Shown: piece after piece, positions 125 to 50,081 of the stretch
How the letters are laid out: each line of letters opens with the position of its first letter
Position numbering within the stretch: position 1 is the stretch's first letter
NCBI GenBank assembly: GCA_026984735.1
Contig: JALSRN010000079.1
Coordinates: forward strand, 1 to 64,000
DNA: 64,000 nt
Reading direction: 5' to 3'
Source of the DNA: Sedimenticola sp.
Lineage (GTDB): Bacteria > Pseudomonadota > Gammaproteobacteria > Chromatiales > Chromatiaceae
Notes under the pieces: generated by a model
The model's input: the letters and a program-made list of their open reading frames with translations, nothing else
What the model was told of the DNA's origin: nothing
Database searches by the model: none
Made by a program: the position numbers and the translations under genes

Positions 125-284
125 CAGGCTGTTGAAAAACAGCGTTTTTCGACAGCCTGTGCGGTACATGGATGTGCCGCCATTTTCGAGGGCCGTAAGC
201 CATTGAAAATGAAGGAACCGGGAAATCGCATTTTCCGGTTCCGTGGTTGAAAAAGTCCAGGGAAGGACTTTATTCAACATCTTG
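125..284 (+). repeat. Multi-hairpin repeat, copy A (MITE/REP-like, with terminal inverted repeats)
   Basis: This 160-bp element recurs in inverted orientation at 49921-50081, about 90% identical by eye over its whole length. Its ends are inverted repeats: CAGGCTGTTGAAAAA at the left, and the right end read on the other strand is CAAGATGTTGAATAA (CAGGATGTTGAAAAA in copy B). Inside lie five successive hairpins. The first has 16-bp arms (CAGGCTGTTGAAAAAC / GTTTTTCGACAGCCTG); the others use GCGGTACA/TGTGCCGC, CATTTTCGA/TTGAAAATG, GGAACCGGGAAA/TTTTCCGGTTCC and GTTGAAAAAGTCC/GGACTTTATTCAAC. It encodes no transposase. A non-autonomous mobile element is the best guess. Confidence 0.8.
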
Positions 285-49761: not shown

Positions 49762-49828
49762 CGTGCGGGCAATGTAAGTCTGGATGCGGCAAGGATAACA
49801 TGGGCGGGTGGGGACGGGTTTTCATGGG

Positions 49829-49850
49829 GATTCCCGCTTTCGCGGGAATG
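49829..49850. repeat. REP-type hairpin
   Basis: ATTCCCGC-TTTC-GCGGGAAT, a perfect 8-bp stem of the widespread REP class (read as VIPAKAGIP-like peptides when translated), in the untranslated gap upstream of the nitrilase gene. Confidence 0.75.
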
Positions 49851-49920: not shown

Positions 49921-50081
49921 CAGGATGTTGAAAAAGTCCTTCCCTGGACTTTTTCACCCACGGAACCGGAAAATGCGATTTCCCGGTTCCTTCATTTTCA
50001 ATGACTTGCAGTCATCGAAAATGGCGGCACATCCCTGTACCGCACACAGGCTGTCGAAAAACGCCGTTTTACAACAGCCTG
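49921..50081 (-). repeat. Multi-hairpin repeat, copy B (inverted relative to copy A)
   Basis: 161 bp, bounded by CAGGATGTTGAAAAA on the plus strand and CAGGCTGTTGTAAAA on the minus strand. It carries the same five hairpins as copy A; the central one is better preserved here, CATTTTCGATGACT / AGTCATTGAAAATG. It differs from copy A by about a dozen substitutions and a 2-nt GT insertion. It lies between yhdP and the nitrilase gene within an otherwise co-oriented cluster, so its RNA would be in the operon transcript. Confidence 0.8.

Follow-up and report, generated by a model that had tools for sequence, protein, structure and literature searches.

A mobile five-hairpin element of putative IS5 type, with loops resembling CsrA-binding sites, in Sedimenticola and beyond

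Two inverted copies of an element of about 160 bp lie within a 64,000-nt stretch of Sedimenticola sp. DNA (the window; contig JALSRN010000079.1), and a first-pass annotation, made from the letters of that stretch, took them for a possible MITE whose folded RNA or single-stranded DNA is functional. The question raised by this locus is whether the element moves and, if so, why a repeat that encodes no transposase would carry an elaborate fold. As judged from sequence comparison, we consider it somewhat more probable than its contrary that the element is a transposon-borne CsrA ligand, that is, an IS5-family MITE with a conserved structured RNA cargo.

The two window copies

Both copies are full-length and, at 92% identity, slightly closer to each other than the earlier estimate of about 90%. 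Five consecutive hairpins are predicted in each of them, in agreement with the first-pass annotation, and the features of the two copies are as follows.

121–124 (no strand): CTAG, left flank of copy A; positions 285–288 read CCAG, with one mismatch, possibly a decayed target duplication
125–284 (+): copy A, complete element, given on the strand with the GGA loops
125–159 (+): copy A hairpin 1, including the left terminal inverted repeat
161–180 (+): copy A hairpin 2, with the loop motif CATGGATG (CANGGANG) at 167–174
181–211 (+): copy A hairpin 3, with one mismatched stem position
214–242 (+): copy A hairpin 4, with the apex CGC
246–278 (+): copy A hairpin 5, the stem overlapping the right terminal inverted repeat, with the loop motif CAGGGAAG at 258–265
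49921–50081 (−): copy B, complete element, with yhdP on one side and a carbon-nitrogen (CN) hydrolase gene on the other
50047–50081 (−): copy B hairpin 1, predicted fold
50024–50043 (−): copy B hairpin 2, with the loop motif CAGGGATG at 50030–50037
49993–50023 (−): copy B hairpin 3, arms perfect
49962–49990 (−): copy B hairpin 4, predicted fold
49927–49958 (−): copy B hairpin 5, with the loop motif CAGGGAAG at 49939–49946

The inverted ends are present as described, with CAGGCTGTTGAAAAA at the left of copy A and CAGGATGTTGAAAAA, after reverse complementation, at the right of copy B. The right end of copy A has drifted (two mismatches, and one extra base in the hairpin-5 stem), and the left end of copy B contains one mismatch. 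The computed folding energies are −84.7 kcal/mol for copy A and −87.4 kcal/mol for copy B, against shuffle means of −46.8 and −46.3, corresponding to z-scores of −9.8 and −10.4, and none of 200 shuffles folded equally well. All five differences between the copies that had been claimed for hairpin 3 are there; in the predicted fold its stem has the one mismatched position in copy A and none in copy B.

The gene order around copy B is yhdP, copy B, the CN-hydrolase gene and then tldD, and the GGA strand of the copy is codirectional with both of its neighbours. Beside the copy, at 49830–49849, lies a perfect 20-bp palindrome, ATTCCCGCTTTCGCGGGAAT, with no other site of this kind in the window when up to two mismatches are allowed; palindromes of this type are common in proteobacteria as small repeats. 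A TGTTATCCT/TGGTATTCTT-like box is found upstream of the CN-hydrolase gene (49790–49802, reverse strand), so placed that copy B sits between yhdP and the box, and a similar box occurs in the 10 relatives in which this junction is readable (L270–L274, L276, L278–L281).

Mobility and distribution

The family is multi-copy: the genome from which the window derives (G000; 2.44 Mb in 101 contigs) gives 12 DNA matches, nine near-full and three partial, where the first-pass annotation had allowed for the two window copies being the only ones. The search for the terminal pattern that it had proposed returned 46 sites at up to two mismatches, against one for the reversed control. Decayed or partial copies in this genome include L010, L011, L012, L026 and a match at position 98155 of contig C101. 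The assembly breaks at the repeat, because C101 ends inside a copy; two further copies, L004 and L005, are flanked on one side by almost identical sequence as far as the end of the contig, which may reflect a duplication or an effect of assembly. End palindromes also occur without the inner hairpins, in full (35 bp) at L059 and partially at L061.

The element has moved. At the yhdP/CN-hydrolase junction that holds copy B, 10 relatives have no element, which provides the flanking-site polymorphism that had been sought. The gap between the two genes measures 365 nt with copy B and 96–146 nt, without any element, in these relatives (of 14 CN-hydrolase loci, one belongs to the window genome itself, 10 are readable, two are without an adjoining yhdP match and one is truncated where its contig stops). 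Flanking duplications, likewise proposed as a check, were counted in two closed genomes, G158 and G007, using the 99 of 121 matches that score at least 80 bits; the remaining 22, at 41 bits or less, were dropped, and most of these overlap a strong match on the other strand. In G158 identical 4-mers flank 43 of 49 copies, where shuffling gives a mean of 8.3. In G007 they flank 19 of 36 copies with a recognised left end (5.4 after shuffling), 14 of the 50 copies in this genome having been left out for a left end off the pattern. Among these identical 4-mers, 36 in G158 and 18 in G007 read YTAR, the duplication typical of the IS5 group. G158 also duplicates off-consensus 4-mers such as TTCA, ACAA and CAAG, which points to genuine duplication and not just to a preferred target. 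The window copies themselves have no perfect duplication, the flanking pairs being CTAG/CCAG for copy A and ACAA/TGAA for copy B.

Autonomous insertion sequences with similar ends, which had been proposed for counting, are present in some carriers, namely G007, G158 and G124. The partner transposons encode DUF772/DDE transposases, which NCBIfam names as IS5 family. The transposon of G007 has the ends CAGGGTGTTGAAAAAC...CAGGCCGTTGAAAATA, is 1303 bp long and is present in two copies (L238, L241) with YTAR duplications; that of G158 (L233) has the ends GGAACTTCTGCAAAAGT...GGATGCTCTGAACAAGT, a length of 1158 bp and likewise a YTAR duplication; and related transposons with similar ends and YTAR duplications are found in G124 (L235, L239). 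Of the 12 IS5-type loci searched for ends, these four (L238, L241, L235 and L239) gave clear end pairs with YTAR duplications, and L233 was read by eye. L240 is a composite that begins at the end of an element, L246 has a different end with CTAG, the end pairs of L245 and L247 proved spurious, and no end pair was found in L237, L243, L234 and L244. In the window genome a search for PF05598 found no intact DUF772 transposase, only a single weak partial match, and in G052, with its 78 copies, no match; both results count against the reading of the element as an IS5-type MITE.

Taken together, the inverted ends, the 4-bp duplications, the IS5-family partners in some carriers, the many copies and the filled and empty site uphold the original MITE reading, and the element is best read as a non-autonomous transposon of IS5 type. 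It shares with IS5-group MITEs the terminal inverted repeats, the 4-bp YTAR duplications, the lack of an open reading frame, the high copy number and the company, in some carriers, of IS5-family transposons with similar ends. It differs from them in a covarying five-hairpin interior with conserved loops that is found across many genera and outside the class, and in having no intact partner in the window genome by PF05598. Given such partners, the interior could be imagined as the transposon's own control element, on which CsrA or another factor, binding the folded RNA or DNA, tunes transposition. The partner transposons examined, though, resemble the element at their ends alone (about 16 bp compared), and the candidate core inside the G158 transposon was rejected: the transposon at L233 begins directly behind a complete, separate element, with which it shares TTAG. 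We regard this explanation as highly improbable.

The element is widespread. Of 14 further genomes examined in the genus, 13 gave DNA matches; the exception is G012, and G011 has nothing better than a 38-bp end palindrome. A covariance model, R1, built from a MAFFT alignment (A2) of 26 hand-picked copies, recovers at E ≤ 1e-4 at least 71 copies in G007, 125 in G158, 78 in G052 and 34 in G294, all closed or near-closed genomes, with the best 150 candidates scored per genome. In a gammaproteobacterial sample R1 detects the structure in 58 of 274 genomes at this threshold (47 at E ≤ 1e-8), and in a sample of the phylum in 48 of 398, of which 44 lie outside Gammaproteobacteria and 36 belong to one family (f198). 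A pattern scan gave 24 carrier stretches, from metagenome-assembled genomes of Sedimenticola, Chromatiales and unclassified Gammaproteobacteria. Distant blastn searches returned no element match in a plasmid collection (both end types) or in a phage collection (one end type).

The fold and its conserved loops

The covariation that had been proposed as a check on the stems is present. In the structure-blind MAFFT alignment of 26 copies, 24 of the 46 pairs change on both sides, a count reached by none of 500 shuffles (mean 12.8) and higher than in all slid controls. Among 37 divergent copies, both-side changes are seen at 41 of the 46 pairs and 96.2% of the cells are paired, in an alignment that was itself fitted to the model. 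There is a modest excess of distinct stem changes that preserve pairing: 13 of 35 among the copies within G007, against a random expectation of 0.20 (p = 0.02), and 23 of 67 in 22 copies from other carriers, against 0.20 (p = 0.006; 22 of 23 hand-listed copies used). The order of the inner hairpins is constant, and the outer hairpins match the inverted ends and differ with them among groups (CAGGCTGTTGAAAAA, GGAAGCTCTGAATAA and others).

The loops of hairpins 2 and 5 are conserved as well. Hairpin 2 has the loop ACANGGANGU in most copies, and that of hairpin 5 is mostly CANGGANG-like or a shorter CAGGANG. In the SELEX consensus of Escherichia coli CsrA, RUACARGGAUGU, the ACA and the GGA are invariant (PMC4347634), and the structural literature gives (A/U)CANGGANG(U/A) for CsrA/RsmA (PMC6692469). 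Hairpin 2 fits both the SELEX consensus and CANGGANG. Of the 37 divergent copies, 35 have GGA in hairpin 2, 35 have it in the hairpin-5 stretch and 33 have it at both places; the full CANGGANG occurs in hairpin 2 of 33 and hairpin 5 of 18. For 14 copies outside Gammaproteobacteria the corresponding counts are 11, 13 and 11 for GGA and 10 and 11 for the full motif, one of the 15 rows of that alignment (A5) having been dropped as lying on the opposite strand.

R1 was trained on copies with GGA loops, a bias removed in a second model, R2, in which both loops were masked. R2 is found in 51 of the 274 gammaproteobacterial genomes, 50 of them common to R1, and its loops were counted in 61 copies on 60 stretches, chosen by hand among the matches listed, from 20 genomes. 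Hairpin 2 contains GGA in 55 of the 61 (GGA is thus lost in six) and the full CANGGANG in 50. In those 50 the first N is G, T, A or C in 20, 17, 8 and 5 copies and the second T, G, C or A in 30, 8, 6 and 6. For hairpin 5 the counts are 45 of 61 with GGA and 16 with CANGGANG, and GGA stands in both hairpins of 42; these three figures come from a crude loop finder, which at times selects the wrong hairpin. At least two GGA-loop hairpins, as looked for in a CsrA/Rsm-binding RNA, are thus present. In the 45 copies of G007 that are exactly 123 nt long, the N positions of the two loops deviate in 4, 6, 23 and 9 copies, and the fixed positions A, G, G and A in 0, 1, 1 and 0 copies of one loop and 1, 0, 0 and 1 of the other. 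Counted as distinct changes, 8 of 12 possible ones occur at N, compared with 4 of 24 at the other positions (Fisher p = 0.007). The 22 copies from other carriers give 6 of 12 and 2 of 24 (p = 0.009), with shared ancestry among copies as a caveat to both tests.

The fold has been maintained through compensatory change and the loop motif has been conserved, and the folded interior proposed by the first-pass annotation thus finds support both in the stems and in loops that match the CsrA ligand motif. In the main rival explanation the element would be purely selfish DNA whose hairpins matter as DNA, whether as cruciforms, as single-stranded hairpins in replication or transposition or as palindromes kept perfect by template switching, and whose loop motif is either a legacy of an ancestral RNA or a site for a DNA-binding protein. 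The target duplications, the IS5-type ends and the outer hairpins that track the inverted ends all agree with it, as do the lack of a consistent strand preference and of a promoter-like site reported below. A DNA role or template switching accounts for paired stems, but not for a fixed A, G, G and A amid varying N, and we hold this DNA-level reading, with its inherited motif, to be rather unlikely, if the most serious of the alternatives.

The hairpin 4 apex is C-purine-C in most of the divergent copies listed, and it and the hairpin 3 loop are also partly conserved (alignment A4); the partial conservation of these two loops is not accounted for by CsrA.

A candidate ligand of CsrA

Motif, fold and loop conservation suggest that the element works like a predicted CsrA/Rsm ligand. 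Two CsrA/RsmA-type hairpins (2 and 5), spaced by hairpins 3 and 4, would form the cargo of the MITE. An IS5-family transposase would act in trans on the ends of the element, a correctly oriented copy would be transcribed by read-through, and its RNA would bind a CsrA dimer via the loops of hairpins 2 and 5. Summed over a genome, the copies may act as CsrA decoys, or as portable landing sites that alter the fate of host messages.

The gene csrA itself (PF02599) is present in all 15 genomes of the genus and, as would be looked for with a CsrA/Rsm-binding RNA, in most carriers of two larger samples. In the class sample 235 of 274 genomes have it, with similar shares among carriers (51 of 58) and non-carriers (184 of 216; p = 0.68), genomes absent from the matches listed being counted as negative; its presence was therefore rejected as a discriminator within the class. 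The seven class carriers without a csrA match are drafts, 55 to 98% complete, and all 24 class carriers that are at least 99% complete have the gene. In the phylum sample csrA, counted in the same way, is found in 220 of 398 genomes and in 46 of the 48 carriers (Fisher p = 5e-11, a value that ignores kinship, 36 carriers being one family), the two carriers without a match being 74% and 69% complete. In each of the 11 carrier families at least one carrier has csrA, two of these families being represented only by weak element matches (E near 4e-5).

Context was analysed in the same 99 copies from G158 and G007 with a simple home-made gene caller, 20 copies that overlap a called frame being set aside. 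The copies are mostly intergenic. Those that follow genes are sense in 49 cases and antisense in 41 (p = 0.46), and both neighbours are sense in 28 and antisense in 20 (p = 0.31). G158 alone has a weak sense excess (18 vs 7, p = 0.04) that is absent in G007 (10 vs 13), and orientation bias as evidence for a cis role was therefore rejected; the lack of a strand preference in the pooled data weakens a cis role at every site. A consensus scan for one promoter type detected nothing promoter-like around either copy in the window, so that these two regions do not show the promoter expected, together with a terminator, of a stand-alone small RNA. The lack of a promoter-like site and of a pooled strand preference counts against the CsrA reading, as do the copies that have lost GGA, the low count of the full motif in hairpin 5, the uninformative distribution of csrA within the class and the frequency of CANGGANG in the window, where its 51 occurrences equal the number expected by chance, so that only its place in a hairpin loop counts.

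These positions could also be those of a REP- or BIME-like 3'-end structure, in which the hairpins protect or terminate messages and any loop sequence would do. The mostly intergenic copies, the excess of convergent over divergent junctions (21 vs 9) and, in both window copies, a stem within hairpin 1 that resembles a terminator and has a T run would fit such a role, but plain avoidance of promoters as targets yields an identical pattern, copies lie downstream of genes in antisense as well as in sense, and a structure of this kind has no need to keep a loop motif. We consider it unlikely. The element resembles REP and BIME sequences in being short, intergenic, hairpin-forming and present in many copies, and differs from them in its inverted ends, 4-bp duplications, IS5-type partner and five distinct hairpins in fixed order; membership of that class (a short palindrome without target duplication and with a RAYT partner) was rejected because target duplications are present.

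A match to a described family, the remaining way in which the annotation expected its reading to fail, did not emerge from an Rfam scan of the window, which gave none at gathering score. In a lax scan of 10 loci one element matched RsmV, an RNA of the CsrA clan, with 21 bits (E = 0.044) against a gathering score of 100; a second lax scan, of 12 loci, gave no match to the clan, a further point against the CsrA reading, and RsmV did not recur. Identity with a known Rfam family was accordingly rejected. The TwoAYGGAY RNA motif consists of hairpins with GGA-type loops and is similar to the element in that respect, but is absent among the matches of the two lax scans (22 loci in total). Like CsrB/C and RsmX/Y/Z/V, the element has several GGA-loop hairpins that fit the published consensus, and in G052 it forms tandem units; unlike these RNAs it is mobile, multi-copy and flanked by target duplications, and the window copies are without a promoter-like site. 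Among the titles listed in searches of open-licence PMC papers, none describes the element.

If the CsrA reading is true, a mobile element spreads ready-made sites at which a global post-transcriptional regulator binds, and so parallels in bacteria the transposons that disperse transcription-factor sites; the growth and rewiring of the CsrA regulon would be testable genome by genome, and the retention of a five-hairpin fold by so small an element over such distances would be explained. Even without CsrA, a widespread covarying structure without an Rfam match at gathering score merits a family entry. More tentatively, and short of calling it probable, we suggest that a CsrA ligand has travelled with this family through Gammaproteobacteria and one or more further class-level lineages of the phylum, the family swapping its outer ends to match the available IS5-type transposase, and that it plants CsrA sites in numbers from tens to over a hundred per genome, buffering free CsrA and recruiting genes into the regulon, with the tandem units of G052 coming near the many-site layout of CsrB.

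In those G052 arrays a unit of hairpins 5-2-3-4 recurs in head-to-tail order about every 124 bp, by which the GGA loops are multiplied. The core-unit arrays lie at L262–L266 and comprise three units at L262, three at L264 and as many as six adjacent matches at L266. Outside the element, hairpins that resemble the CsrA type were observed at L089 (1712–1770), where two small palindromes, GCACAGGGATGTGC and GTACATGGATGTAC, stand close together, the second of them inside a longer stem.
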